The notes beneath the pieces were generated by a model. It saw only the letters and a list, made by a program, of their open reading frames with translations. It did not search any database and had not been told where the DNA came from. Below are positions 35,079 through 53,312 of a stretch of DNA of 53,312 nucleotides, in pieces. The stretch is from Opitutus sp. GAS368. GTDB taxonomy: Bacteria > Verrucomicrobiota > Verrucomicrobiia > Opitutales > UBA953. Each line of letters starts with the position of its first letter. Position 1 is the first letter of the stretch. Both the position numbers and the translations under genes were made by a program. The DNA lies in assembly GCA_945882655.1 (NCBI GenBank), contig CAMCWL010000004.1:1-53312 (forward strand), given 5' to 3'.

Positions 35079-35166
<88 letters not shown>

Positions 35167-37482: not shown

Positions 37483-38469
37483 ATGGATAACACCCAAGGC
37501 AATAAGCCCCTCCCCTCCCTCGAGTTCATCTGGAGCCACCTGAACCTCGAGGGGACTGTTAAGGTCGGCATGCTCAAGTGCCCATGCCACGAGGACAAGA
37601 ACGCCTCGCTTTCGATTTTCGAGAGCCGAGACCGTTCCCGCCTCCTGTGGAAGTGTCACGCCGGCTGCGGCGGAGGCGACTCCGTCGATCTCTACGCCAT
37701 GGTCAAAGGCTGCAGTCGAAAGGTTGCCCTCCGCATCCTGACCCTGACCCCTAACGAGATCGTGGATGATTTCACGGCCCACATCCTGCGAAAGTCCAAG
37801 GAGGCCCTGCGCGACGACACCCTGAAGCCCACATTCCAGTTCAGCCAGATAGGCATCAACGAGCGGATTAGGCAGCTGGCTGAACTTCGGAAAATCCCGC
37901 AGGAGGGGGTGGCCTTGGCCTACCGCCGTGGCTTGCTCGGGTTCGGAAGCCACGAGGGCTATGCCGCCTGGGTCGTCCACGACTCGAGTGGCCTGAACAT
38001 CCAAGCTAGGCGCCTGAGTGGTCACCTCTGGTGGGGAAAGTCCAAGTCTCACACCATGCGCCATTCCAAGGCCTCCCTACCGGTCGGCATACGCGAGTGC
38101 TACCTCGCCAAGGTGGTGCATATCACCGAGGGGGCGCCCGACCTAATCGCCGCCCATGCCGTAATCGCCGGCATGGCTGCCCCGGAGGACCATAGCGCCA
38201 TCGGCCTGCTCGGGGCCTCCATGCACCCCTCCAAAGCCGTATTCGGCCCGCTGGAGGGCAAAGATGTGGTGATCTGGGCCCATTCAGACTCCGCAGGCAA
38301 GAAGGCGGCTGATGCCTGGACCAAGAGCCTGTTTGGGCTAGCCAGGTCCGTGGTCATCCTTGCAGCCGAGGACGTCCTGCCAGGGCACAAGGACCTGAAT
38401 GACCTGGTTGCCAGCCAGACTGGCATGAGGGCGATCATCTCGAAACTCAAGGAGGTGGGTCATGCTTAA
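37483..38469 (+). CDS. Phage/plasmid primase-like protein (CHC2-type zinc finger and TOPRIM)
   Basis: 328 aa. Residues about 30-70 hold CPCHEDKNASLSIF and WKCHAGCGGGDSVDLYAM, a DnaG-like CHC2 zinc finger. A TOPRIM-like core follows: VVHITEGAPDLIAAHAVIAG with the catalytic Glu and VVIWAHSDSAGKKAADAW with the Asp-x-Asp-like position. The end GHKDLNDLVASQTG is typical of plasmid and phage TOPRIM primases. It likely primes element replication. An AAGGAGG lies 11 bp before the start. It overlaps the next gene by 8 bp. Confidence 0.84.
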   Translation: MDNTQGNKPLPSLEFIWSHLNLEGTVKVGMLKCPCHEDKNASLSIFESRDRSRLLWKCHAGCGGGDSVDLYAMVKGCSRKVALRILTLTPNEIVDDFTAHILRKSKEALRDDTLKPTFQFSQIGINERIRQLAELRKIPQEGVALAYRRGLLGFGSHEGYAAWVVHDSSGLNIQARRLSGHLWWGKSKSHTMRHSKASLPVGIRECYLAKVVHITEGAPDLIAAHAVIAGMAAPEDHSAIGLLGASMHPSKAVFGPLEGKDVVIWAHSDSAGKKAADAWTKSLFGLARSVVILAAEDVLPGHKDLNDLVASQTGMRAIISKLKEVGHA

Positions 38470-39940
38470 TAGAGACGACGCTTCCCCCACCCCCGCCGGC
38501 CCGTTCCCTTCTCACGTCCTCCCTCCTGTCCTTCGGGACATGGCGGAGGCGGCGAAGCACGCCGTCGGTGGCGGTCATGACCTTTCGGGCATCATCGCCC
38601 TCGGGGTTACCGCACTGGCAACCGCCCCAGGCCTTCAGGTCGGGGTCAAGCCGTCGGATAGCCTGAGGACTCCGGCCTGCCTCTTCATCCTCGTCTCCGC
38701 GATCAGCGGCTCAGGCAAAAGCCGAACGGCCAAGTTCTTCATGGACGTGGTCTACCGGCGGGAGCGTGAGCTGCAGGAGACGTTCAAGAAAAAGACCAAG
38801 CCGGATATGCTGGCCGAGAAAGACCGGCTAGTCGCGGAGATGGCCATACGAAACGATGAGGTTCGCCGCCGGCTGAAAGGGATGGAAGCGGGGGCTCAAG
38901 CCGAGCCCGATGAACTCGACGCTAGGATCAGCGCCCTCCATGCCCGGCTAGAGGCTATCGAGGACTCCTTCCAATGGCCTAACCTTGTGGCCGAGGACTT
39001 CACCTCCAGCGCATTAGCCAGGCTCATGGCTGGCAGCAAAGGCCGGTGCATGATCTTCTCCTCAGACGCACGAACCCCCATCAAGAACCTACAGGGACGC
39101 CACCAGAAGGACGGGCCTGACGACGCGCTCCTCATCAAGATCTGGAGCGCCGAATCGGTCAGCCTATCGCGACGTGGCAGCGGGAACGGAGTCGACCAAG
39201 TGACGGTCAACCGGCTTACCGCTAGCCTGCTGCATTTGGTTCAACCGGACTTGGTCAATGAAGTCATGGGCAACAAAGCCCTTCTGGACAGCGGTTATAT
39301 GTGCCGAACCTTGGTGGCCTTCACGGACTCCAAGCCGGCCATGCCTGACGAGCTGAAGGACGTACCCCCTGAACTGCAGCGCAAATACGACACCCTCATG
39401 ATGGACCTGATGCAGACCTATTACGAACGGGACGAACCGGCGACGGCCTACTTCACCGTAGAAGCGCTGCATCTGCTGATTGAACGAGATCGGGCAACGG
39501 TTCAGGCCTATCGTGACGGCAACACCGAAGGCTGGTCCATCCGCAGCCGCGACGGGGAGCAGATTCGACGTATCTCCATCGTCCTCCACGCCGGCCTGCA
39601 CGGAGGCAAAGCCCACGAAATGCCGGTCGAGGCAGCCAGGGTCTCAGAGGCCATGCAGATCATGGACTGGTTCATTCGTCAGCGCCAACCCCTCATCGAG
39701 AAGCAGCAGGTCGAGGTGGACACCCAAGTAAGGGCCGTGGTCGCTACCCTAGCCGAAGCCAACCCTAGAGGCTTCACCGTCCGGGACGCCCAACGCCGGA
39801 GCATCATCCCGGGACAAGGGACCGCGGCCGAGGTCCAAGCCCTGCTGGAAGATCTGGTGAAAAGGGGCATCTTGGTCTCGACCATCGAAAAAACACCCGG
39901 CAAGGCTGACAGACCCCTCTATTTGTCAGCCAGGAACTGA
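38462..39940 (+). CDS. DUF3987-type P-loop replication protein
   Basis: 492 aa. Walker A SAISGSGKSRTAKFF at about residues 80-94, with the region before it (HDLSGIIALGVTALATAPG, PACLFILVSAISG) typical of DUF3987. A coiled insert follows at about 105-165. The core contains FSSDARTPIKNLQGRHQKDG and LLIKIWSAESVSLSRRG. The C-terminal part carries a winged-helix-like end, RDAQRRSIIPGQGTAAEV. These proteins accompany primases in integrative elements and may act as helicase-type ATPases. AAGGAGGT lies 5 bp before the ATG, one of the few strong Shine-Dalgarno motifs in the window. Confidence 0.82.
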   Translation: MLNRDDASPTPAGPFPSHVLPPVLRDMAEAAKHAVGGGHDLSGIIALGVTALATAPGLQVGVKPSDSLRTPACLFILVSAISGSGKSRTAKFFMDVVYRRERELQETFKKKTKPDMLAEKDRLVAEMAIRNDEVRRRLKGMEAGAQAEPDELDARISALHARLEAIEDSFQWPNLVAEDFTSSALARLMAGSKGRCMIFSSDARTPIKNLQGRHQKDGPDDALLIKIWSAESVSLSRRGSGNGVDQVTVNRLTASLLHLVQPDLVNEVMGNKALLDSGYMCRTLVAFTDSKPAMPDELKDVPPELQRKYDTLMMDLMQTYYERDEPATAYFTVEALHLLIERDRATVQAYRDGNTEGWSIRSRDGEQIRRISIVLHAGLHGGKAHEMPVEAARVSEAMQIMDWFIRQRQPLIEKQQVEVDTQVRAVVATLAEANPRGFTVRDAQRRSIIPGQGTAAEVQALLEDLVKRGILVSTIEKTPGKADRPLYLSARN

Positions 39941-40180: not shown

Positions 40181-40723
40181 TCAGCGTTTACGGAAAACCA
40201 ATACGCCGATCATGCCTAGGCAGAAAATCACCGCCAAAGCGGACCAACTATCCAGGAAGTCGGATGGCTTAGACCCCGATTGATATGCGACCTGCCTCGG
40301 CTGGACAGAAGCCTGCGGCTTGACCGTCGGACCAGACGTAGCAGCAGGCCCAACCCTCGGAGCCCCGGACTTCACCTGCGCCGGCTGGGCCTGCTTAGAT
40401 GCGCGCCTCGCCTGCATGTCCTGCTGAAGTTTGTGCGTCTTATCCAAAATCGAGGCGGACTTGGGCTCGATCTCCACGGCGGACAGTTCGATGGCCTCCT
40501 GATATTCCTTGCTCGCCTTAGCCACCTCGTCTCTTGCGGCCTTAAGCTTGGCTTCGGCTTCCTTCGCCTTCGGAGTCGCGATCGCCTTGGCAAGAGTCAG
40601 CTGAAGTGTCTTGGCCTCATCCGGCGTAAGCGGAGCCGGAGGAGTATTGGTCACCTCCTGTGCCCCCAGCAAGCAGATGGACGCGAAAAACAGGAGGATG
40701 CCTGGCGATACAAAGGTCTTCAT
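40181..40723 (-). CDS. Small surface-anchored coiled-coil protein, paralogue 1
   Basis: 180 aa. Signal peptide MKTFVSPGILLFFASICLLG, then PLTPDEAKTLQLTLAKAIAT and a coiled coil (AEAKLKAARDEVAKASKEYQ), a Pro/Gln/Ser linker, and a C-terminal TM (SALAVIFCLGMIGVLVF) ending RKR. It is clearly paralogous to the 47831 protein: same order, the same PDEAK start and a shared KTHKLQQ/KTRRLQQ segment. Both are divergent from a thrombospondin-type-3 repeat gene (140 bp gap here). The tripartite end (linker, TM, basic tail) resembles surface-sorting tails, but no known sortase motif is present. Function unknown. Confidence 0.78.
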   Translation of the reverse strand: MKTFVSPGILLFFASICLLGAQEVTNTPPAPLTPDEAKTLQLTLAKAIATPKAKEAEAKLKAARDEVAKASKEYQEAIELSAVEIEPKSASILDKTHKLQQDMQARRASKQAQPAQVKSGAPRVGPAATSGPTVKPQASVQPRQVAYQSGSKPSDFLDSWSALAVIFCLGMIGVLVFRKR

Positions 40724-40863
40724 GACTCGGGGTGCCTGATGACACCTCAGCCCGCCACATGCGTCAACCCATTCCTACGATCTCCAATTCGTAAATCGTA
40801 TGTAAAAAATAGGACGATAATTGCTACAATAATACCATTGCTGCCTACTGATGACCGAGCACG

Positions 40864-42780
40864 ATGAGCCGCGTCATGAACCCCGTGATACGCGCAGCGC
40901 GCCGCTTACTTGCGGCTGCCCTGATTATCTCCATCTTCGTCAAAGTCCCCCTGTCGATGGGTGTCGCCGCGACGTTCCCCGACGATCAGATAAACTACAG
41001 TCCCGTAAATGGATTCTCCTGGTATGAGGATGGCTTCGGCGACGCGGACGAAGACGGCATCCCTAATTTCCACGATCCCGCGCCCTACGACCCGTCAAAC
41101 ACCAGTCCGGTGAATGGCATAAGCTGGGGACAGGATGCCCTGTCCGACGCGGACGGGGACGGGACGCCCAACTTCAACGACCAGTATCCGTACGACATGT
41201 TCGACGGCAACCCGCCTCCGTCCGACCCGGACAGCGACGGAGATGGCATCCCCGACTCAGCCGATCCCGCGCCTTGGGATTATTCGAACTACAGCCAGGC
41301 TAACGGCATGTTCTGGAATGGCTCCGCCACAGGCGATGCGGACGGAGACGGCATCGCCAACTTCAACGACCTGTATCCGTACGACATGTATAATGGTAAT
41401 CCGCCCATGTGGGCGACCGATTCCGACGGTGACGGGATACCGGATACGTCTGATCCTTCTCCATGGGATAGCTCGAACTTCAGTTCCGCCAACGGGCAGC
41501 CTTGGTACATATCCGCATTAGATGACCTTGATGGCGATGGCATCGCCAACTTCTACGATCAGTGGCCTGACGACCCCTACAACGGCAATCCGCCTGTCTT
41601 TTTCGCGGATTATGACGGCGACGGCATCGCCGATGAGGAAGATCCGGCGCCCTACGACTCCATCAACCTGAGCCCCATCAACGGAATCGCATGGCTCAGC
41701 GCTGCGCTAAGCGATGCGGATGGAGATGGAAATCTCAACTTCAACGACCCTTGGCCATACGATCCCAACAATGGTAACGGCTCACCCAGCGGCCCTCCCG
41801 AAAACGAACCGGATTCTGATGGAGACGGCATACCCGACCGTGATGATCCAGCGCCGTACGACTCCACGAATACAAGCCCTGTCAACGGCATCGCCTGGTA
41901 CAACTCGGTCTGGGTAGATTCGGATCTGGATGGCGTCCAGGACTACTGGGATCCGGAGCCCTACGGCCAGATGCAGCAAGACACCGACGGAGACGGACTG
42001 CTCGACAACGTGGATCCGGCGCCGAACGACCCCAACAACTACAGTAGCTATAACGATACGAATTGGAATTCCGACGCGCTCGGCGACAATGACGGCGACG
42101 GTACGCCTAACTTCTTCGATGCTTGGCCGTATGACCCCTACGATCAACGGGATTCGGACATGGACGGAATCACCGATGACACAGACCCTGCTCCCGAAGA
42201 TTCGGGCAACTACAGCAACCACAATTCGACGACCTGGGGATTCGACGCGCTTGGCGACCTAGACAACGACGGAACACTGAACTTCTTCGACCCTTACCCG
42301 TATGATTCCCACAACGGGGACCCGTCCATGATGGATTCAGACAACGACGGCTATACCGATGACATCGATCCGGCGCCACAGGACCCGAACAACCACAGCG
42401 AAGAAAACGGGCTGGATTGGTATGATAACGCGCTCGGCGATAATGACGGGGACGGCATCAACAACTTCAACGATCCTACCCCGAACGGCGACCCTAACGA
42501 CCCGGATGGCGACCACTTCACGGACAACGACCCCGCCCCCGAAGATTACTCCAATTACAGCAGCCATAACATGGTCAGCTGGTATCAGCGAATCTTCGGA
42601 GACGACGACAATGACACCATCCTGAACTTCTTCGACCTCCGCCCGGATACCTACGACGAACCTAATCCGCCGGATCCAAATAATCCCACTGATCCGAACG
42701 ACCCCAACGATCCGAATAATCCGCCACCTCAGCCCGAAGGCGACGGAAACACCGAACCTGCCTCCCAGGACTGCCCATAA
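40864..42780 (+). CDS. Secreted thrombospondin type-3-like repeat protein, tip missing
   Basis: 638 aa with a signal/TM N-terminus (AARRLLAAALIISIFVKVPL). Residues about 40-600 are calcium-binding TSP3-like repeats of about 62 residues, built as DSDGDGIPD-x-x-DPAP, then NYS-x-x-NG-x-x-W, then GDADGDG-x-x-NF and PYD-x-x-NG. The end is low complexity (DPNNPTDPNDPNDPNNPP) and stops at QDCP, where the two related proteins continue into a shared linker domain and a large tip. It therefore looks truncated, and the downstream DNA holds a relic reading frame. Divergent from paralogue 1 of the small anchored proteins. Confidence 0.88.
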   Translation: MSRVMNPVIRAARRLLAAALIISIFVKVPLSMGVAATFPDDQINYSPVNGFSWYEDGFGDADEDGIPNFHDPAPYDPSNTSPVNGISWGQDALSDADGDGTPNFNDQYPYDMFDGNPPPSDPDSDGDGIPDSADPAPWDYSNYSQANGMFWNGSATGDADGDGIANFNDLYPYDMYNGNPPMWATDSDGDGIPDTSDPSPWDSSNFSSANGQPWYISALDDLDGDGIANFYDQWPDDPYNGNPPVFFADYDGDGIADEEDPAPYDSINLSPINGIAWLSAALSDADGDGNLNFNDPWPYDPNNGNGSPSGPPENEPDSDGDGIPDRDDPAPYDSTNTSPVNGIAWYNSVWVDSDLDGVQDYWDPEPYGQMQQDTDGDGLLDNVDPAPNDPNNYSSYNDTNWNSDALGDNDGDGTPNFFDAWPYDPYDQRDSDMDGITDDTDPAPEDSGNYSNHNSTTWGFDALGDLDNDGTLNFFDPYPYDSHNGDPSMMDSDNDGYTDDIDPAPQDPNNHSEENGLDWYDNALGDNDGDGINNFNDPTPNGDPNDPDGDHFTDNDPAPEDYSNYSSHNMVSWYQRIFGDDDNDTILNFFDLRPDTYDEPNPPDPNNPTDPNDPNDPNNPPPQPEGDGNTEPASQDCP

Positions 42781-43151
42781 ATAATTGGGGTAAATTCTGG
42801 GATGGCAAAACTTGGCGTACCTTAGTCATGAATGGCGGAAAAAGTCGTAGCCAGCCCGGCCGCCCCCTCTAACGGGTTCGGGCCGGCCAGCGACTAGGGC
42901 TACGCCTCCAACTGGACCGAGTTCTCCGAGGCCGACTTCGGCGGCGGTTTCACCCTGCCCGTGCGCCTGGATTTCCTAAACGAACACAACATCGGGATAT
43001 GCCCGATTGTATAACAACGCCGGTGCCGCCGAAGCCACACATGCAGGACACATAGGCGGAGCCGGCGACGCAACTAGAGGACTAGGACCTTGGGCATAAC
43101 TGCCATAGGCTTCCGGCGTAGGTAGACAACCATGCGACCAGATCAACTCAG
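42781..43151. other. Intergenic relic region downstream of the truncated stalk gene
   Basis: Contains a broken reading frame (listed separately at 42832-43014). A second short frame (about 43010-43099) reads NNAGAAEATHAGHIGGAGDA. No intact gene, tRNA or strong terminator seen. Confidence 0.5.
42832..43014 (+). pseudogene. Probable decayed gene fragment with in-frame TAG
   Basis: ATG at 42832 reads MAEKVVASPAAPSNGFGPAS, then Asp and TAG at 42895-42897. The same frame continues GYASNWTEFSEADFGGGFTL and PVRLDFLNEHNIGICPIV to TAA at 43014. Codon use (GGC, GCC, CTG, GTG) is chromosome-like on both sides of the TAG, which suggests former coding DNA. Family not recognised; it might be a remnant of a lost tip or partner gene of the stalk protein just upstream. 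Confidence 0.4.
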
Positions 43152-43793
43152 TCACTTGCGACGCTTGAGCAGCCACCACAGCAGGCCACCAGCCGCGATC
43201 AACACCGAGATGACAATCCACAGCCATGGAAATTCTTGCTCCAGTGAAAGCTTAGAAGGATTACCAGGCAACACTGCCGACTGATTCTCATTACTACCCG
43301 AAGGTGTCTGGAGCGATTTAGGCTTTAGATCGCGCTTCTTATTTGCAGCTACAGCTACGAAAGGTTTGTCCACGCCCGGACTTCCCTCCTTGAACTCCAA
43401 TTCTGTCTGTGAAAAGAGCAGGGTATATTTTGTCTCTTCCAGCTCCTTGCCAAAGGATCTAGCGTCAAAGGCGGATGTGACTTCATATACATTGCCAGAA
43501 CCGACTCTCTTAATTGAAATCCAACTGTGCCTTTCTACGAAATGGACTTCCTCGAATCCGGGGGTAAGGCTTATGGTTTCCCCCTTTTCAAGCAGTACGC
43601 TCACTCTACCATCTTTAACATAGTTAACATATGAAATACGCACACCGTTTGGATCGAGGGTAATCGTAATGCGCCCAGGGGCGACTGTTACATTCGAAAA
43701 ATATTTACCTAGAACAGTTTTTAGTTCTGGTTCTGAGCAAAATGCTGCCTTCACAAAGCAGAGCATTAACAGGACGATTGTGATCTTCTTCAT
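43152..43793 (-). CDS. Secreted, C-terminally anchored partner of the 43798 stalk protein
   Basis: 213 aa from the ATG at 43793 (MKKITIVLLMLCFVKAAFCS, signal peptide). The start lies 4 bp after the stop of the large stalk gene, so the two are one operon. The body is beta-rich (GRITITLDPNGVRISYVNYV, KGETISLTPGFEEVHFVERH), followed by a Ser/Asn/Pro linker and a C-terminal TM (WLWIVISVLIAAGGLLWWLL) ending KRRK. Architecture resembles the small coiled-coil anchored proteins but the sequence is unrelated. It may hold or modulate the neighbouring secreted protein. Low GC for the region. Confidence 0.72.
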   Translation of the reverse strand: MKKITIVLLMLCFVKAAFCSEPELKTVLGKYFSNVTVAPGRITITLDPNGVRISYVNYVKDGRVSVLLEKGETISLTPGFEEVHFVERHSWISIKRVGSGNVYEVTSAFDARSFGKELEETKYTLLFSQTELEFKEGSPGVDKPFVAVAANKKRDLKPKSLQTPSGSNENQSAVLPGNPSKLSLEQEFPWLWIVISVLIAAGGLLWWLLKRRK

Positions 43794-43797
43794 GGAA

Positions 43798-46700
43798 TTA
43801 AGGTTTGGGCCCAAACCGGCGGAAACTCTGACAACCAGGATTGGCCCAGTCTAGTGTTGGATAGATTCCAATGCTGTGCGTCATCTCTATCTTCCTACAG
43901 CGCACCTCACTGTCGCCGTAAGTTGAATACTGCGTTTGACGTGTTGCAGTAGCCACGTTGTAGGTGTCAGCGTTCAAGGGGTCGGACTTTATGCCATCTA
44001 AATGTGGCTCATCTGAATCATCTACATCATCACGGTCGTCATCTTGCCAAAATGGAAACCAGCCACTACGACTATAAAGAGCCAGATGATGAAGTTCATG
44101 CGCTACTATTTCCGCGACGCACTGTATCCCTCTGCCTTGTCCTGTGACCGTGATCGTTCCATAGGTTGATTTAAGAGTATGAGTCCCATCGTTTTCTTCT
44201 GGAGCCATTCTTCCAAGCCTTATGGTTTTTTCTCTGCGCAATGCTATGCCGTAGCCTAATACATTATGATCATATTTGGCGGTATCAGGAATTCCGCACA
44301 CCTGTCCGTCTTTCCAGTAGAAAAACCAATTTGGGACCGTGCCGGAACCTTCACCTGGATGGTTCATCCAATCCTTCGGGAAGAACACCTCGAACCTCGC
44401 TTCTCCGGCATTGCTGCTGCCATGCTTCACGCGTGCTGTCTTTAACCCAAAGTCTGAGTTGTTCCGTGGGAGCCCCGTGTAGGTCGCCGTAGCTGTGATG
44501 AACTCTCCGCTCACAGTGGCTTTACCTCCGGGGTTTGCAGCATCCCATGCGAATGTCGAGTTACCGATGGAATCCAATGCGAAGTTTAACTTGGCCTGTT
44601 CGTCAGCCGGCATCGAACCGATGCCCGTCACTTTAGCTTTCAACTTCACCGTCAACACTCCGACTTCGGCCGCGCTGTAAGTGAACTCATTGGCACCGTC
44701 GGGGATGTTTGCTGGAGTGATACCAGCATCGACAGGAGCCTTCACCGGATCTCCTGATGGAGTGATAAACTCCACCTTTACCACCTGAATCGTCAGCGTA
44801 CCCGGTGCGGTTGACGAAGAATCGGCCGACGACCAATCATAGTTCAGGGTGATGCAATCCGTCGCGCCGCATCCGGGCGGCCGATGTGCTTCGCGGTATT
44901 CGCCGGACTCCGGAAACTCATATTCCAGCTTCACCTCGCCGGCCCTCGTCCCCTCGACCCAATACTGCCACCCGTCACCCTGCTTAAGGACGAATCCCGT
45001 CCCACTGCTATAGACGCAGTCTTCTTCATTCCCTCGGACGGCATGGATCCTCACCTCGCCAGCGCCGCTCGACCGGATTACGATCGACCGCTGACCGTTA
45101 GCATAACCGTCCGGAAGGGATATCGCCAGGGGCATAAGACCCTCGGTCTTCGGCGCACCTTCTCCGCCAGCCTTCAGCGTCACAGTCTCAAAATCACGCT
45201 TGGACTCAGGCGTCCATGGGCCGGTCAGCTCGTCGAAGTTATCATTGAGCAGGACGAACGAGGATGCGGAAACAGACGGTGCGGACGGCCAGGTGCAAGT
45301 GCATGAAGGACCCGGCTCAGGTTCCGGGAGCTTGGGATAAGGCTCAACGTCGTCGAAATTTCTGATTATGTCCCCGTCGGCATCTTCGTTGGCCGAACCG
45401 CCAGGCCAAGGCAGTTCGTTATGGGGACTGACGTTATACGGATCATCCTTGGCAGGGTCGATGCTGTCGGCCAGACCATCGCCGTCGGTATCAGGGTCCG
45501 TGACCGGGGAATTGCCGTCGTAGAAGTCCTCCGGATACCGATCGAAGAAGTTGAGCCTGCCGTCGTTGTCGAGGTCGCCGAGCGCTTCGGTCCCGTACCA
45601 GTTACGGTCGTTATAGGAGCTGTAGTTCATCGGGTCTCCCGGCGCCGGGTCGGAAAGGTCAGGAATGCCGTCCATGTCCGCGTCGGCAGTGCCGTTCATG
45701 CTGTCGTTCGGCCAGACATCGAAGAAGTTCGGGACGCCGTCCCCGTCGAAATCACCGAGGGCGTCAGACGGCCAGCTGGTCATGTTGTGCCGGCTGTAGT
45801 TACTTTGATCTACGGGAGCCGGATCGACGAACGTAAGCAGACCGTCTCCATCAAAATCACCCTCAGGCGAACCAAAAGGCTCCAAATCCCAGAAGTTTTG
45901 CACTCCGTCGGAATCCATATCGCCGCGGACGTCGGCGTACCACTCTAGTCCGTTTAACGGGCTGAGGTTCTTCGGGTCGGTTTGCGCCGGGTCGCTGACG
46001 TCCGGGATGCCGTCCTGGTCGAAGTCCGCGTTGTCGTAGGGGTCGTTCGGATAGGGGTCTTGCGAATCCGGCCGTCCGTCACCGTCCGTGTCGGGCTCAG
46101 GCTGCGGATCTCCGCCGCCACCCGTGCCACCGTTGGTTGCGTCATAGGGGTACGGATCCTGCGAATCCATGATCCCGTCGCCGTCCGCATCGCCATTTCC
46201 GTTGTTCGGATCGTTCGGGTACGGGTCGGAAGAATCAGGGACGCCGTCGGCGTCGGAATCCGGCCCGGAGTAGCTGCCGTTATAATAATCGTAGGGATAG
46301 GGATCCTGGAAATTGGCGATGCCATCTAAGTCCAAGTCGCCGACAGCGTCCGCATACCACGACGTGCCGTTGTAGATGCTGAAGTTCAGCGGGTCGGCCA
46401 GGGCCGGATCCTGCGCGTTAGGAATACCGTCGCCGTCGGTGTCGGCCGACGGGCTGTCCCATTCGGGCGGCAGGTTGCCGTTGGTCGGATCGTAGGGCCA
46501 AGGATCCGTGAAGTTCGGGTTCCCGTCGCCGTCGGCGTCGGCTAGGGCGGCCGTATACCAAAGACCCCCGTTGATAGGGCTCAGGTTGGTGGGGTCAGTG
46601 GGCGCCGGGTCTTCGGCATCAGGGATACCGTCGCCGTCCATGTCGGAGACCGGCATGTTGCCGTTGTAAAAGTCGTACGGAAACTGGTCGTAGAAATTCG

Positions 46701-47661
46701 AGATACCGTCGCTGTCGGCGTCGCCGCGGGCGTCCCCCTGCCAGCTGACGCCGTTGGCGGCGCTGAAGTTATAATAATCCCAAGGCGACGGATCGGATGA
46801 GTCCGGGATGCCGTCGCCATCCGCGTCGGGTTCAGAGGGGACGTATCCGTTGCCGCTGTCGTAGGGATAGGCGTCGTAGAAATTGGCGATGCCGTCGGCG
46901 TCGGAGTCGCCGAAGGCATCCGCGCCCCAGGAGATGCCGTTGGAGAAACTGTAGTTCGAGTAATCATTGGGGTTCGGATCGGAGCCATCCGGGATGCCGT
47001 CATGATCTCCGTCCGTAACCGCATCCCAGCGCGAGGCGTCGTAAGGATACCAGTCGTGGAAATTAACGACGCCGTCGCCGTCCGCATCAGCCAAGGCGTC
47101 GCCCAGCCAGGGAAAACCGTTGGCCGGACTGATGTTATAAGGATCACCAGGAGCTGGGTCGACGGGGTCGGGGATGCCATCGTCGTCACTGTCAGGGTCG
47201 ACGGCTGGGCCGCCGGCTCCATAAGGGTCTGCGTCCGTGAAATTCGGGATGCCGTCGCCGTCGGCATCGTCCATGGCGAAGGCGCCCCAGTCGATGCCGT
47301 TGGCCTGACTGGAATTCGAGGAGTCCAGAGGCAGCGGGTCGAAGGCGTCCCACAGGCCGTCACCGTCGGTGTCCGCCACGAAAGGGTCGGTGCCGATCGC
47401 CAGCTCCTGCGCGTTGGAAAGCCCGTCGCCGTCGATGTCGTCCGAGAAAGCGTCCAGTTCGGCCAAGGTGAACACGCGGCCGCTCAAGGGGTCGACCCAG
47501 GAGTCGGGTTGCCCGTCGCTGTTGGCGTCGGCCCAGAAGGCCAGCAAGGCCGGGACAGGCGAGAGCAGCGCGATCAGCATGATCGCAAGGGCACGACGCC
47601 AGGCCGGCTGGCCAGTGCGTACGGCTCCGCCGTGCGCGGAGTCCGATAACATGGTCTTCAT
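43798..47661 (-). CDS. Giant secreted TSP3-repeat stalk protein with HELHH zincin-like tip
   Basis: 1287 aa. Signal region RRALAIMLIALLSPVPALLA, then a short EF/dockerin-like start (SDDIDGDGLSNAQELAIGTD) and TSP3-like calcium-binding repeats to about residue 785. A linker domain follows (SASSFVLLNDNFDEL, SSGAGEVRIHAVRG) that is shared with the 50088 protein. The C-terminal 350 residues are unique and contain IVAHELHHLALYSRSG at about 1185-1200, a His-Glu-x-x-His zincin motif, with a later EPHLDG and an acidic DDDRDDVDDSD stretch. Likely an extracellular protein with a metallopeptidase-like tip; catalytic activity is inference. Divergent from paralogue 2 and followed by its partner at 4 bp. 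Confidence 0.88.
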   Translation of the reverse strand: MKTMLSDSAHGGAVRTGQPAWRRALAIMLIALLSPVPALLAFWADANSDGQPDSWVDPLSGRVFTLAELDAFSDDIDGDGLSNAQELAIGTDPFVADTDGDGLWDAFDPLPLDSSNSSQANGIDWGAFAMDDADGDGIPNFTDADPYGAGGPAVDPDSDDDGIPDPVDPAPGDPYNISPANGFPWLGDALADADGDGVVNFHDWYPYDASRWDAVTDGDHDGIPDGSDPNPNDYSNYSFSNGISWGADAFGDSDADGIANFYDAYPYDSGNGYVPSEPDADGDGIPDSSDPSPWDYYNFSAANGVSWQGDARGDADSDGISNFYDQFPYDFYNGNMPVSDMDGDGIPDAEDPAPTDPTNLSPINGGLWYTAALADADGDGNPNFTDPWPYDPTNGNLPPEWDSPSADTDGDGIPNAQDPALADPLNFSIYNGTSWYADAVGDLDLDGIANFQDPYPYDYYNGSYSGPDSDADGVPDSSDPYPNDPNNGNGDADGDGIMDSQDPYPYDATNGGTGGGGDPQPEPDTDGDGRPDSQDPYPNDPYDNADFDQDGIPDVSDPAQTDPKNLSPLNGLEWYADVRGDMDSDGVQNFWDLEPFGSPEGDFDGDGLLTFVDPAPVDQSNYSRHNMTSWPSDALGDFDGDGVPNFFDVWPNDSMNGTADADMDGIPDLSDPAPGDPMNYSSYNDRNWYGTEALGDLDNDGRLNFFDRYPEDFYDGNSPVTDPDTDGDGLADSIDPAKDDPYNVSPHNELPWPGGSANEDADGDIIRNFDDVEPYPKLPEPEPGPSCTCTWPSAPSVSASSFVLLNDNFDELTGPWTPESKRDFETVTLKAGGEGAPKTEGLMPLAISLPDGYANGQRSIVIRSSGAGEVRIHAVRGNEEDCVYSSGTGFVLKQGDGWQYWVEGTRAGEVKLEYEFPESGEYREAHRPPGCGATDCITLNYDWSSADSSSTAPGTLTIQVVKVEFITPSGDPVKAPVDAGITPANIPDGANEFTYSAAEVGVLTVKLKAKVTGIGSMPADEQAKLNFALDSIGNSTFAWDAANPGGKATVSGEFITATATYTGLPRNNSDFGLKTARVKHGSSNAGEARFEVFFPKDWMNHPGEGSGTVPNWFFYWKDGQVCGIPDTAKYDHNVLGYGIALRREKTIRLGRMAPEENDGTHTLKSTYGTITVTGQGRGIQCVAEIVAHELHHLALYSRSGWFPFWQDDDRDDVDDSDEPHLDGIKSDPLNADTYNVATATRQTQYSTYGDSEVRCRKIEMTHSIGIYPTLDWANPGCQSFRRFGPKP
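45880..46660 (-). repeat. Segment of high nucleotide identity to 52515-53295 (stalk duplication)
   Basis: Aligned by eye at an offset of about 6,635 bp. Within 46421-46640 and 53056-53275 most positions agree, and the encoded stalk sequence is almost the same (for example GLWYTAALADADGDGNPNF in both). Identity falls off below about 45,880. The right-hand partner runs to the window edge. Confidence 0.85.
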
Positions 47662-47830
47662 GTGCGGGAAAAGCCGACGGGGCGGTCGGCGGGGGTGACC
47701 CCAGCATCAAACCGAGCGGAGGTTATTCAAGCGTTTTATAGACCGTCAGTATTTACAAATTTATTACAAATCCACACGGTATCAGTCCCGTTGACAGGCT
47801 TAGGCGGAAGGACCACCCTGCCCGCACCCC

Positions 47831-48370
47831 ATGAGAAGCCTCTTGCTCGCCTGCTGCCTCGGCCTGTCGGCCGTCTGCGCTACCCTTTCCGGCCAGGTCG
47901 CCCCGAAGTCCCCGGCAGACGCACCCCTTGCCCCCGATGAGGCCAAGAAGCTGCAAGCCGTGATGGCCAAGGCCACCGCTTCGCCGGAAGCCAAGGCCGC
48001 GGAGGAGAAACTCCGGAAGGCACGCGAAGAACTCGCCAAGGCCACGCAGGCCTACCAGACGTCCGTCGAGAAGGCCGCGATCGACGCCGACCCGGCAGCC
48101 GCCCCCGTCATCGAGAAGACCCGACGCCTCCAGCAGGAGGCACTAGCCCGCCGCAGCGCGGGCAAGCCCGCCGGCAGCTCAGCGGTCGCCTCCGCGCCCC
48201 GTCAGGCGCCTCGAGTCGCCGCACCGTCCCAGGTAGGCCAGCCGATCGCCACCGCCCGCGCCACGACGGGTTTCCCCCGGCCTTCGGAACTATTCGACAA
48301 CTGGGCCGCCGTCGGCCTGCTCATCGCGTTGGGCGTCATCGCCGTGCTGCTCCTGCGCAAGCGCGGCTGA
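47831..48370 (+). CDS. Small surface-anchored coiled-coil protein, paralogue 2
   Basis: 179 aa. Signal peptide MRSLLLACCLGLSAVCATLS, then APDEAKKLQAVMAKATASPE, a coiled coil (AEEKLRKAREELAKATQAYQ), an Ala/Pro linker and a C-terminal TM (AAVGLLIALGVIAVLLL) ending RKRG. Every element matches the 40181 protein in order and spacing, including the Phe-x-x-Trp before the TM (SDFLDSW there, SELFDNW here). It is divergent from the 1287-aa stalk gene (169 bp gap), as paralogue 1 is from the 638-aa one. Its high GC fits the flanking stalk DNA. Function unknown. Confidence 0.78.
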   Translation: MRSLLLACCLGLSAVCATLSGQVAPKSPADAPLAPDEAKKLQAVMAKATASPEAKAAEEKLRKAREELAKATQAYQTSVEKAAIDADPAAAPVIEKTRRLQQEALARRSAGKPAGSSAVASAPRQAPRVAAPSQVGQPIATARATTGFPRPSELFDNWAAVGLLIALGVIAVLLLRKRG

Positions 48371-48759
48371 GACGAGGACAAAAAAGGCTCAAGGCCTGTG
48401 GCGGATGGCAAGCGGAGCGCCCTGTTGGCTTTGGTCCTCGATCTCCCGAAAGCCATTGGACAAATATTGGACAAGATAAGGGGCTCTTTTGGCAGAACCT
48501 GCCTAACCGTGCAAAAGCCGAAGCCCCATTTCACTGGGATTTCACGGTTAAAGTGGCGGAGAGAATGGGATTCGAAATCCGTTCCTCATAACGTAAACCT
48601 TAGTGTTTATTGATGTTCGCCGTTTCGTTAGACAAAACATTGGACAACTTTACGACTAAATCAGCCTAATCCTGCAGAACGTGCAGAGGCAAGGGAGTTT
48701 CGCGCGTAACAATTCCGGAGAAAGGGAGGATGGACTTGATCGGGTCACTATCCAATTGC
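48371..48759. other. Intergenic relic region with tRNA-Ser 3'-end-like sequence
   Basis: No intact gene. At 48554-48576 the minus strand carries TTCGAATCCCATTCTCTCC followed by GCCA, matching 20 of 23 bases of the tRNA-Ser 3' end at 35144-35166. The rest of a tRNA is absent. ATTGGACAA occurs three times (about 48456, 48467 and 48641), spaced unevenly. These are plausible traces of a former tRNA-targeted insertion. Confidence 0.55.
48554..48576 (-). repeat. tRNA-Ser 3'-end fragment (possible att relic)
   Basis: 23 bp on the minus strand covering a T-loop, part of the acceptor and CCA, 3 mismatches to the intact tRNA-Ser(GGA). The T-stem cannot pair, so it is not a functional tRNA. Orientation is opposite to the intact gene. 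Confidence 0.6.
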
Positions 48760-50091
48760 TCAGTAAAACAGATCGAGCTTGAACAAGCCCTCCCATCCTC
48801 TCGTTTCGGCCAGGAACTGCGAGGTTTCCATGACATGCTTATCACCGTTAAACATTATTTCTGCCAACGAAGCGGAGGATGAATCGTCAAACAACATCAA
48901 CGCCTTTCCTGTCGTCGTGAACAAGGTGTCTTCAAACGTTCTGCGTTTCACCTGAACTGAACGGGCCACATCCCAGAGAGCATTACGTGCCGACTCGCTC
49001 CCGATCTTCGCCAAAAGCACGATGGCAGTCCTGCTGAAGCGCACGTTGTCAGCGTCGATGGCGATGTCTCGAAGCACCGGAACTGCTAAATCGGGCGTAA
49101 CAGCTTCAATGCCGTGCTCGAGCACAAACACTGCGTTGTCATCCCAGGCAGGCGTTATCTCGCCAAACACCTTGGGCTTCATGCCTGGCTTGTAGGTGCC
49201 GTCGGCATTCAGCGGCTGCGGCAGTCCCGACACTCTCTTGGCCACTTCTATAAGCCGCTGCTGAGCCGCCACATCACCCTGGCTTGCAAGCACTACATCC
49301 GCTGCGTGTTTCACCTTATTAGTGCTGCCTTCCTGTGATATCTCATGCATGAGAGCAGTCACGCTCGGGTCACGGATATTTTTCAGCATTAAGATGGCAT
49401 CGACAGACATGCTCGGCTCTCGCTCGTTCACCGGGAGCAAATACCTCACTGAGTCTGCATCGCCAAGCTGTGCGAGCACTTGAGCGGCGACGTACACATC
49501 AACCTCACTATCCACTTTGCTCGTGAGCAGAGCTTTGATTCTCGGTAGATATTGTGTTGGATTCTGACTCGCAAAGTCCTTCAGGAAGACCCCCCACCAC
49601 TTAGCCGAATCAGGACCTTCAATCTTGCTCATCACAAAATCGAACCCTCGCTTATCGCCAAAGGAGCAAAGAACCTGGGCGGCCACCAGCTGCACATTCA
49701 TATCCGCGTCATGCAGCAGGCCTGCCACAAGTGGCAATGCCTCAATAATTTCGTGCGTCTGCACTCGTCCTAACCATCTCAGCAAGTCCTTACCGCCTTG
49801 AAGTCCTTTCAAAGCATTCTCAATCTGTGCATTGCCGTGAAAAGTTCTGATCATTGATTCACGACGTGCATAGTAATCGCGAGCTGCGGACGGAAAGAGT
49901 TTGGGATCACGCGATGCATCATAACGATGCAGACGATCTTTCGTGATTGAAACAGAGGGTGCGAATCGAGGAACGGGGGATAACCAAACCTTGTTTGGTT
50001 GATCTCGTCGTGATTCGCGTTGCCACAAAAGCGCACCCGTCAAAGCCACACAGATTCCGACGAGTATGATCAAGTAGGTTTTCTTGCTCAT
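48760..50091 (-). CDS. Membrane-anchored HEAT-repeat partner of the 50088 stalk protein
   Basis: 443 aa. N-terminal TM/signal anchor (KTYLIILVGICVALTGALLW). Residues about 95-420 consist of HEAT-like helical pairs, for example LPLVAGLLHDADMNVQLVAA, QVLCSFGDKRGFDFVMSKIE, VAAQVLAQLGDADSVRYLLP and RTAIVLLAKIGSESARNALW. Such repeats bind proteins. The start codon overlaps the stop of the upstream stalk gene (ATGA), so the two are translationally coupled. Unlike the partner of the other stalk gene it has no C-terminal anchor, so the partners are unrelated in sequence and fold. Confidence 0.8.
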   Translation of the reverse strand: MSKKTYLIILVGICVALTGALLWQRESRRDQPNKVWLSPVPRFAPSVSITKDRLHRYDASRDPKLFPSAARDYYARRESMIRTFHGNAQIENALKGLQGGKDLLRWLGRVQTHEIIEALPLVAGLLHDADMNVQLVAAQVLCSFGDKRGFDFVMSKIEGPDSAKWWGVFLKDFASQNPTQYLPRIKALLTSKVDSEVDVYVAAQVLAQLGDADSVRYLLPVNEREPSMSVDAILMLKNIRDPSVTALMHEISQEGSTNKVKHAADVVLASQGDVAAQQRLIEVAKRVSGLPQPLNADGTYKPGMKPKVFGEITPAWDDNAVFVLEHGIEAVTPDLAVPVLRDIAIDADNVRFSRTAIVLLAKIGSESARNALWDVARSVQVKRRTFEDTLFTTTGKALMLFDDSSSASLAEIMFNGDKHVMETSQFLAETRGWEGLFKLDLFY

Positions 50092-53000
50092 CGCATGATT
50101 GGCCCTCCGAGTTGAATAAATTCCTCCATCTTTGCCTCGCTGATTGAGTTGGTGAGCGGGTCGATTCGCCTCCCGTTGTAATAAACGTGATAGACCGGGA
50201 AGATTTCATGTTCTGGAATTGCAGTGGTTCCGGCTTTCGCATGGGCAACCCCAAACTCAATGAGCGACCAAATCCAAGGCACCGTTAGGTTGTTAAGTCG
50301 CTGGCTGATTTGTCCACCACTCAACGTGCCGCTCGTGGAGATTCGGCCCTGGGTGTATTGCTCGAAGTCGTCTGCTAGATTTGCGCTGTATGTCTTGCCA
50401 CTCTTCGGATTGAACATAACGGATGTTCCGTTAGTATTCACCGTTCCATCGTATGGGCCGGTTTCACCGGCTGGATCAGGCAGCCAGTCTACGGGAGTGA
50501 CGCCGACTTGTGTTGTTTGCTTAAGATAGTGAGGTTCTCCTTTGATCTTACCGGAGTCGTCCAATTCAAATCTGGCCTGGAAGCGTTGAAACGATCGGAA
50601 CTTGTCTGTCTGTGATTTGAACATCGTGAATCCGGCATCATCGACCATTTTTCGGTTCTTAGAACCTGGCCAATACAACTGGAACTCAGCAGGTGGCGCA
50701 TTGTTTGGCGAACTCTTAATGAGATAGGCATTCACATACTTTCGTCCGCCATCCGGAGAGTGTGGCGTGGTCCAAAGCGGACTGGAACCCGACAGGACCG
50801 CTGCATCCAGCAAAAAGCCGTTTCGAAGCACGAACGAATCCATCACACTGGCATAAGACAATCCATAGTAACTGGGATCGGGCACCATGTCGGTGCCTTT
50901 CGGTAAATTAATCTGCTCACCATCAATCCAGCCAATCACCGTGACGTCAGGGCTTCGATAGCCGAGGTTCTGTTCGAAATCGAACTCGGCAACGGCTCCA
51001 CCCGATGGCGTGTAACGGCAATGAATGCGCCACTTTCCAGGCAACCAGTCAAGCGGGTCGTCGAGTTTCCATTCGTTGTCAGTTCCAACTGGAGCGTCTT
51101 TACGGGAGCCGCTCGGACCAGTTGCCCACCATTGGAATGAGCCGCTTGTTAGCCCCGGAACGCTCCAACTTATGAGGTCGCCGTTTCTGACATCATCGAC
51201 CTCTGGAATTGTCGGACTTGTGTAAGCAATTGGGCCTGATGAGACTGGCCCGGTTGTCCAAGTTTTTGTTGGATCATCACGATTCACAATCTTTACTAAC
51301 ACCGATTCTAGGGTCAAATTAACGTCTACATCCGATGACATGGTCCCAGATGGATGGCCACTAGTAGTCTCACCGTACAACAACCAAGGAAAGTGGCACG
51401 TCAGCGTAACGCCCCCACCGCTCACGGACTCGATCAGATGCACCCATGTGCCGTCATCGGGGGGCACGTAGGGAACGCCCATCGATATCTCCCTGTCTTC
51501 AACTCCTTCGCCATCCACCATCCTGACGGCGTGAAGCCGGACAAAACCTGCGCCTGACTGAGTAAAAGTAACCGAACCGCCCGCATTCACATAATCAGTA
51601 GGCAACGAAAGATTCAGCGTACTGAGCCTACTGATGGCCATCTTTCCTGCCCGAGACCCAGCCTTGATGGCCAAAGATACATCCGCCATGTCGCGGTCCG
51701 GCGTGACACCGGGATCAGGCGATACGCCTAGTTCGTCATAGCCGTCGTTAAGTATGACCAACGGGGAGGCCGAAGCCGAAGGCTGAGGAACATCCGGTTC
51801 GCGGGGCGGGCCGCCATCCGGCTCGGGGTCGTAGAAGTTCAGGTCATAGTCCAGGTCGTTGTCGCCTAGGGCGTCAGCATACCATTCGCGCTGATTGGCT
51901 TCACTGTAATTGGTCCAATCATCCGGGGCAGGATCAAGGTCGTCGCGTATCCCGTCCCCATCTCGGTCATCCCCGAAAGGGGTGTAATCCCAATAATTGG
52001 CCGTACCGTCGTTATCCGCGTCTCCATTCGCACCCTCCCCCCAGTTGATACCGTTATACGGGCTCGTATTTGTGCCGTTCCTGGGATCCGGATCTTGTTC
52101 GTTCGGAATACCATCGCCATCGGCGTCACCCCCGGGAGGCAGGCCGTCATAAGGGTCATCGGGATAGGCGTCGAAATAGTTCAGGATGCCGTCGTTGTCG
52201 ACGTCGCCGAGCGCGGAGGTGCCACTCCACATCGCACCATTGTGAGAGCTGTTATTATAAGGGTCTTCGGGAACGGGGTCGCTCGCATCGGGCAAGCCGT
52301 CCATGTCCGCGTCCCCAGTCCCGTTTAGGCTGTCATACGGCCAGGTGTCGAAGTAATTAGGGATGCCGTCCCCGTCGGCGTCCCCCAAGGCGTCCGACGA
52401 CCAGATGGTCTTGTTATATGCGCTAAAATTATACGGGTCCTCCAGAGCCGGGTCGATACTGTCGAGCATGCCGTCGCCGTCGGTGTCGACCGGCGTCGGA
52501 CCATAGGGCTCGAGGTCCCAGAAGTTAAGGATGGTGTCGCCGTCGGCGTCGCCGCGGACGTCAGCGTACCACTCGACGCCGTTGAACGAGCTATGGTTGT
52601 TCCGGTCGGCTTGCGCCGGGTCGCTGACGTCCGGGATGCCGTCCTGGTCGAAGTCCGCGTTGTCGTAGGGGTCATTCGGATAGGGGTCTTGCGAGTCCGG
52701 ACGGCCGTCACCGTCGGTGTCGGGCTCAGGCTGCGGGTCTCCGCCGCCGCCCGTGCCACCCGAACCGTTGGTCGCATCATAGGGATACGGATCCTGCGAA
52801 TCCACTATCCCGTCGCCGTCAGCGTCACCGTTTCCGTTGTTCGGATCGTTCGGATACGGGTCGGAGGAATCCGGCATGCCGTCACCGTCGGAATCCGGCC
52901 CGGCATAGCTGCCGTTGTAATAATCGTAGGGATAGGCGTCCTGGAAATTGACGATGCCGTCCCCGTCGACGTCTCCATTGGCGGCCCCATACCAGGACGT

Positions 53001-53312
53001 GCCGTTGTAGATGCTGAAGTTCATCGGATCGGCCAAGGCCGGATCCTGCGCGTTGGGAATACCGTCGCCGTCGGTGTCGGCCGTCGGGCTGTCCCATTCG
53101 GGCGGCAGGTTGCCGTTGGTCGAATCGTAGGGCCAGGGGTCCGTGAAGTTCGGGTTCCCGTCGCCGTCGGCGTCGGCTAGGGCGGCCGTATACCAAAGAC
53201 CGCCGTTGACCGGGCTCAGATTGGTGGGGTCGGTAGGCGCAGGATCCTCGGCGTCGGGGATGCCGTCGCCGTCCTGATCGAACACCGGCACGTTGCCGTT
53301 GTAATAGTCGTA
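50088..53312 (-). CDS. Giant secreted TSP3-repeat stalk protein, 5' end beyond the right edge
   Basis: At least 1074 codons; the frame is open to the right edge (YDYYNGN before the first in-window Met), so the signal peptide and first repeats are missing. The stalk (to about 51800) is TSP3-like and close to that of the 43798 protein. The linker domain SASASPLVILNDGYDEL ... QSGAGFVRLHAVR is shared, but the following 400 residues (GKWRIHCRYTPSGGAVAEF, HEIFPVYHVYYNGRRIDP) have no similarity to the zincin-like tip. No catalytic motif is clear. Followed with ATGA overlap by the HEAT-repeat partner. Confidence 0.87.
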   Translation of the reverse strand, partial: YDYYNGNVPVFDQDGDGIPDAEDPAPTDPTNLSPVNGGLWYTAALADADGDGNPNFTDPWPYDSTNGNLPPEWDSPTADTDGDGIPNAQDPALADPMNFSIYNGTSWYGAANGDVDGDGIVNFQDAYPYDYYNGSYAGPDSDGDGMPDSSDPYPNDPNNGNGDADGDGIVDSQDPYPYDATNGSGGTGGGGDPQPEPDTDGDGRPDSQDPYPNDPYDNADFDQDGIPDVSDPAQADRNNHSSFNGVEWYADVRGDADGDTILNFWDLEPYGPTPVDTDGDGMLDSIDPALEDPYNFSAYNKTIWSSDALGDADGDGIPNYFDTWPYDSLNGTGDADMDGLPDASDPVPEDPYNNSSHNGAMWSGTSALGDVDNDGILNYFDAYPDDPYDGLPPGGDADGDGIPNEQDPDPRNGTNTSPYNGINWGEGANGDADNDGTANYWDYTPFGDDRDGDGIRDDLDPAPDDWTNYSEANQREWYADALGDNDLDYDLNFYDPEPDGGPPREPDVPQPSASASPLVILNDGYDELGVSPDPGVTPDRDMADVSLAIKAGSRAGKMAISRLSTLNLSLPTDYVNAGGSVTFTQSGAGFVRLHAVRMVDGEGVEDREISMGVPYVPPDDGTWVHLIESVSGGGVTLTCHFPWLLYGETTSGHPSGTMSSDVDVNLTLESVLVKIVNRDDPTKTWTTGPVSSGPIAYTSPTIPEVDDVRNGDLISWSVPGLTSGSFQWWATGPSGSRKDAPVGTDNEWKLDDPLDWLPGKWRIHCRYTPSGGAVAEFDFEQNLGYRSPDVTVIGWIDGEQINLPKGTDMVPDPSYYGLSYASVMDSFVLRNGFLLDAAVLSGSSPLWTTPHSPDGGRKYVNAYLIKSSPNNAPPAEFQLYWPGSKNRKMVDDAGFTMFKSQTDKFRSFQRFQARFELDDSGKIKGEPHYLKQTTQVGVTPVDWLPDPAGETGPYDGTVNTNGTSVMFNPKSGKTYSANLADDFEQYTQGRISTSGTLSGGQISQRLNNLTVPWIWSLIEFGVAHAKAGTTAIPEHEIFPVYHVYYNGRRIDPLTNSISEAKMEEFIQLGGPIMR

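Follow-up and report, generated by a model that had tools for sequence, protein, structure and literature searches.

Membrane-anchored coiled-coil proteins encoded head-to-head with repeat-stalk genes in an Opitutales genome, and the cassette-like behaviour of one such locus

Results

Stalk genes and their neighbours

The stretch of DNA analysed here, hereafter the window, comprises all 53,312 bases of contig C4 in the Opitutus sp. GAS368 assembly (genome G000). Its right part carries large genes for secreted repeat proteins (stalks), small genes for anchored proteins divergent from two of them, and 3' partner genes on the strand of the stalks that they follow:

40181-40723, minus strand: small 1, 180 aa, paralogue of small 2 with identical architecture and an RKR end
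40864-42780, plus strand: stalk 1, 638 aa, signal peptide and repeats alone, without a tip domain
43152-43793, minus strand: P7, 3' partner of stalk 2; signal peptide, ectodomain and C-terminal transmembrane segment (TM) with KRRK; its ATG lies 4 bp past the stalk 2 stop
43798-47661, minus strand: stalk 2, 1287 aa; signal peptide, Asp-rich TSP3-like repeats of about 60 residues (25 DxDxDG-type motifs), Ig-like middle and a tip with HExxH at residue 1188
47831-48370, plus strand: small 2, 179 aa; signal peptide, helical coiled-coil domain (residues 33-109), disordered Pro/Ala linker (115-150), C-terminal TM and RKRG end
48760-50091, minus strand: HEAT-repeat protein, 3' partner of stalk 3; N-terminal TM and HEAT repeats; its ATG overlaps the stalk 3 stop (ATGA)
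50088-53312, minus strand: stalk 3, 5' end past the contig end; repeats, Ig-like part and a tip unlike that of stalk 2

The first-pass annotation had the third stalk gene running off the right edge and predicted a third anchored small gene beyond it; the contig does end inside this stalk gene. No exact repeat of the contig end occurs within the window (the last 21-200 bases are unique), and neither the missing 5' half of stalk 3 nor a further stalk fragment was found elsewhere in the G000 assembly (1.84 Mb, 86% complete), the rest of which also yielded no third anchored small copy.

Two paralogous anchored proteins

Small 1 and small 2 are homologous over nearly their full length (38% identity over 174 aa, E 3e-37; 41% in a MAFFT alignment), and chance resemblance was rejected on that E value. 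Together with hydropathy, the alignment bears out the earlier description of both proteins as sharing a signal peptide, a PDEAK segment, a coiled coil, a linker, a W at the start of the TM and an RKR end. In both, the helical domain opens with PDEAK, W stands at the start of the C-terminal TM, and the hydropathy profile contains two TM-like windows, the N-terminal signal and a second one from residue 157/159. The AF2 model of small 2 (mean pLDDT 67, above 90 in the coil) places helices at 35-49, 52-86 and 88-109, disorder at 115-150 and a terminal helix at 151-178. The features of a type I, C-tail anchored inner-membrane protein (signal peptide, one C-terminal TM, basic tail) are thus found by hydropathy in both paralogues and by AF2 in small 2. 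From these predictions the C-terminal TM would sit in the inner membrane, with the RKR end cytoplasmic and the coiled coil periplasmic.

The coil of small 2 is helical and of low complexity, and neither a PDB fold search nor sequence searches with the small protein returned a match pointing to a specific function. Weak helical similarity to Com_YlbF (PF06133) was seen in 10 of the 14 coiled-coil family members scanned (best E 0.0007); small 2 remains under the Pfam gathering score (18.7 versus 23.9 bits), and proteins of the small 1/small 2 type differ from that family in being secreted and anchored.

An anchored form within a genus-wide secreted family

A three-sequence profile searched against 55 genomes of the genus gave matches in 29. 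The matches for which open reading frames were inspected are secreted proteins; they carry the same helical domain once or twice, together with hydrophilic tails, and lack a TM. The start of this domain is spelled PDEAK in the anchored proteins and PDEQ or PEEQ in the wider family. A homologous helical domain therefore follows the signal peptide in small 1 and small 2 and in the unanchored proteins, which differ in having no C-terminal TM and, where their surroundings were read, in adjoining a sialate O-acetylesterase gene (e.g. G000 C8:29.6 kb) and not a stalk gene. The secreted PEEQ coiled-coil protein, seen across the genus (e.g. L032 4533-5117), belongs to no Pfam family.

Of the 55 genomes, only 3 contain the anchored form: G000 has it twice, G011 (JANRFG01, 'Opitutales bacterium MAG_315') once, and G041, a third species, as a fragment of 30 codons from the 3' end, located at a contig edge. 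No other case was found among 373 order-level genomes, and G011 was the sole match in a genome-contig search. Nothing was recovered from IMG/VR when it was scanned with the small family and with stalk 1, or from plasmids scanned with small 2 and with stalk 3. We consider the small protein to be an anchored offshoot of the genus-wide secreted coiled-coil family; the domain homology is established by the searches above, and the TM was presumably gained rather than lost, since the anchored form is rare.

The proposal that the small anchored gene is a stalk partner accordingly stands in part. The head-to-head arrangement recurs, the gene is kept in G011, and its 3' fragment persists in G041; the coil domain, on the other hand, is not specific to stalk loci, being widespread in unanchored secreted proteins.

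Common shaft, unrelated tips

The repeats of stalks 2 and 3 are 80% identical over about 400 aa, identity falls to 37% in the Ig-like part, and the tips that follow are unrelated. With the Pfam cut-off of 25 bits for TSP3_bac/TSP_3, stalk 2 passes (30.8 bits), stalk 3 falls below (20.8 bits) and stalk 1 has no match; stalks 1 and 3 are counted as TSP3-repeat proteins because they are homologous to stalk 2. TSP3-type repeats bind calcium. Like bacterial thrombospondin type 3 repeat proteins (TSP3_bac PF18884, TSP_3 PF02412), the stalks are secreted and carry Asp-rich repeats of the Ca-binding type, whereas their unit is of about 60 residues, with NxSxxNG..W and NFxDxxPYD segments. Nothing comparable to the stalk-type repeats was found among the 373 order-level genomes. 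The distant profile neighbours are MtsC (NCBIfam NF047638), of which the stalk is not a member (53.9 bits, cut-off 350), and CglD (NCBIfam NF033765), whose cut-off of 400 lies far above the 22.1 bits obtained.

Ordinary TSP3-repeat proteins of the genus, opened on two contigs, had no small anchored neighbour. Other TSP3-repeat proteins of the genus (L039 3114-5900 and L040 1-2286) are of about 900 aa and end in a hydrolase-like domain with an AHSLGN motif; their likeness to the stalks is limited to the repeats.

The stalk 2 tip had no match in Pfam, NCBIfam, PADLOC, PHROG or PDB sequences; its HExxH motif is retained in G011, where a P7 orthologue also sits behind the stalk tip. A variable tip on a common shaft, each with its own 3' gene, was found for stalks 2 and 3. 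Stalk 1 has neither a tip nor a following gene on the same strand, the next gene, P7, converging from the opposite strand, and no tip remnant was found behind it, yet it keeps its small gene. Because this tipless stalk retains the small gene, the comparison of two or three loci suggests an assignment of the small protein to the shaft and of P7 or the HEAT-repeat protein to the tip. Tip and 3' gene possibly form a second exchangeable pair, resembling an effector and its immunity protein.

Related divergent gaps with a spaced repeat

Each small gene lies head-to-head with a stalk gene, with the reading frames and the gaps of 140 and 169 bp that the first-pass annotation had given. The intergenic regions contain the following features:

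40724-40863: small 1/stalk 1 head-to-head intergenic region, 140 bp, related to 47662-47830 in the same orientation
40788-40805, minus strand: TTAC-N7-TTAC direct repeat, candidate regulator site, 82 bp upstream of the small 1 ATG
47662-47830: small 2/stalk 2 head-to-head intergenic region, 169 bp, conserved in G011
47753-47770, plus strand: TTAC-N7-TTAC direct repeat of 11-bp period, candidate regulator site, 78 bp upstream of the small 2 ATG

Comparison of the two gaps, which had been proposed as a check, showed them to be related and to have the TTAC-N7-TTAC repeat in common. Their local alignment in the same orientation scores 37 against a shuffle mean of 23.5, a value equalled in 12 of 2000 shuffles; in the opposite orientation the score is 25.5. 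Among shuffled gap pairs, any common 4-mer repeat with a period of 9-13 bp appeared in 42 of 5000. An extended TTAC-N7-TTAC pattern has two matches in the assembled genome, one per small/stalk gap; as the pattern was itself drawn from these gaps, this count speaks for its specificity and is no independent test. In the G011 promoter gap the first TTAC is TTAT. A scan for sigma-70 consensus promoters gave matches at chance level only, none inside the gaps.

The stalk 2 locus behaves as a mobile cassette

G000, G011 and G041 are all draft assemblies, and the small/stalk pairs sequenced in full number two. The features that bear on mobility are listed below:

35079-35166, plus strand: tRNA-Ser(GGA), left of a mobile-element-like region
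37483-39940, plus strand: a Toprim primase-like and a DUF3987 helicase-like gene that overlap each other, both of a type known from phages and integrative elements, adjoining small 1
43135-48373: extent of the cassette [P7, stalk 2, gap, small 2], which G011 and G041 share in part; flanks differ in each genome
48554-48576, minus strand: tRNA-Ser 3'-end fragment TTCGAATCCCATTCTCTCCGCCA, 23 bp, situated some 180 bp to the right of small 2 and possibly an att scar

The G011 orthologue of small 2 is 88% identical at the amino acid level, and its contig ends in the promoter gap; a second G011 contig starts in the stalk 2 tip and continues into P7. Blastn of the window against the fetched G011 stretches returned two blocks only, 43135-44178 and 47688-48363 (the latter at 88%). 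The G011 stalk body is unassembled, and the adjacency of the two parts is deduced from the two contig ends and the empty site.

In G011 the cassette lies between a superoxide dismutase (SOD) gene and an esterase gene, at the ends of contigs C4 and C36. The corresponding sites are empty in G000 C24 (4133-5841) and G041 C40 (1703-3405), where SOD and the BD-FAE-type esterase are 87-90 bp apart. Homology between G011 and the empty G041 site ends at base 2453, in the SOD terminator, and restarts at 2477, so that about 23 bp of this terminator have been replaced in G011. The small 2 fragment of G041 is located upstream of a different gene, and the G011 orthologue of that gene is without the cassette. 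Comparison of the insert positions thus places the set at three sites in three species, and [3' partner, stalk 2, small 2] behaves as a mobile cassette that moves as a unit to different chromosomal sites. No transposase was found within it.

Several traces of mobile elements lie nearby. In the window, the tRNA-Ser is followed, up to 39940, by a lower-GC stretch with the primase-like and helicase-like genes, and the fragment at 48554-48576 is inverted relative to this tRNA-Ser. On G011 C4 (L123 1226-1354), a short remnant resembling the N-terminus of an IS3-type OrfA was identified by eye; it lies in the interval from P7 to SOD, with inverted GGGGTCAGGCC sequences close by.

Unequal evolutionary rates within the cassette

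Between G000 and G011, dS is 0.21-0.44 across all genes compared; being similar throughout, it indicates that divergence between the two lineages is about equal for cassette genes and host genes. The dN/dS ratio of small 2 is 0.19 (0.13 for the signal and coil part), against 0.15 for SOD and 0.10 for the esterase, whereas the stalk tip reaches 0.50 and P7 0.66 in this one species pair, over 141-209 codons. By these ratios small 2 is apparently constrained like a housekeeping protein while the tip and P7 change fast together.

Discussion

We tentatively favour, at somewhat less than even confidence, a model in which the small protein is anchored in the inner membrane with its coiled coil in the periplasm, tethers or assists the secreted Ca-repeat shaft and is divergently co-regulated with it. 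Derived from a genus-wide secreted coiled-coil protein by gain of a TM anchor, it would be exported via its signal peptide and retained in the inner membrane by the C-terminal TM, so as to hold the helical coiled coil in the periplasm on a flexible linker. The divergent gap carries a conserved repeat of 11-bp period, for which reason we infer that the small gene and the stalk are under shared control from this gap. The small protein would most likely bind, tether or help assemble or export the Ca-binding shaft, and its task probably lies with the shaft since the small gene accompanies it even where the tip is missing, in stalk 1. The tip and its overlapping or abutting 3' gene would make up a separate exchangeable pair, P7 with the HExxH tip and the HEAT-repeat protein with the tip of stalk 3, and the stalk 2 set would move as a single cassette between chromosomal sites. 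The weights that we give to this model and to the readings below are not mutually exclusive.

The stalk loci recall polymorphic toxin systems (Zhang et al. 2012, PMC3482391) in their repeat shaft, exchangeable C-terminal tip, overlapping 3' gene and mobility. They may accordingly represent a conflict system of polymorphic-effector type, in which the shaft bears an exchangeable tip (HExxH peptidase-like or of unknown kind), P7 or the HEAT-repeat protein serves as anchored 3' immunity protein, and the small protein is a dedicated export or anchor factor. This is a possibility of which we remain doubtful, and it is compatible with the membrane-partner model. It would account for unrelated tips on the common shaft of stalks 2 and 3, for the different 3' gene that each tip gene overlaps or abuts, for the mobility of the cassette and for dN/dS ratios of the tip and P7 well beyond the 0.10-0.19 of small 2 and the host genes, and it has precedents, as toxin domains with HExxH and immunity proteins with HEAT repeats have both been listed, the HEAT-repeat type also from verrucomicrobia (PMC3482391). 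However, the tips and P7 match no toxin, immunity, PADLOC, PHROG or Pfam entry, the single PADLOC match of the HEAT-repeat protein is weak, a tip is missing from stalk 1, and the raised dN/dS may also reflect relaxed constraint. The loci further differ from polymorphic toxin systems by the absence of a recognisable toxin or immunity family and by the additional divergent anchored coiled-coil gene on the 5' side.

That the small protein is a generic periplasmic helical protein of the envelope or stress response, standing beside the stalk through duplication history and playing no role with it, seems unlikely to us. The occurrence of the same domain throughout the genus away from stalks would fit such an origin, whereas the restriction of the anchored form to stalk cassettes (3 of 55 genus genomes), twice over in G000, and the conservation of gap and coil while the tip and P7 change both argue against it. 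More improbable still is an exosortase-type sorting signal in the W-TM-RKR tail, by which the small protein would be processed and sent to the surface or matrix instead of being kept in the inner membrane: the tail has the tripartite look of a short motif, a TM and a basic end, and the genome encodes an exosortase (C174:899-1807, 110.8 bits), but the small protein has no NCBIfam match at E up to 1, PEP-CTERM-type sorting-signal families included, and the D-[NS]-W motif was seen only in these paralogues and their orthologues.

Under the model of a shaft partner in the inner membrane, a membrane-anchored coiled-coil family without a name becomes linked to one particular shaft protein. The whole set changes place as a single cassette, related species having clean empty sites, and its conserved part, the shaft partner, can be separated from its fast-evolving part, the tip with its 3' gene. 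For repeat-shaft proteins of uncultured Opitutales, an effector/immunity interpretation thereby becomes directly testable. More speculatively, and with low expectation on our part, Opitutales might possess a mobile, modular surface display made of a Ca-repeat shaft, an exchangeable tip, a fast co-evolving 3' membrane partner and, for each shaft, a divergently transcribed coiled-coil protein of the inner membrane drawn from the genus-wide secreted family, which would together act in contact-dependent competition or kin recognition.
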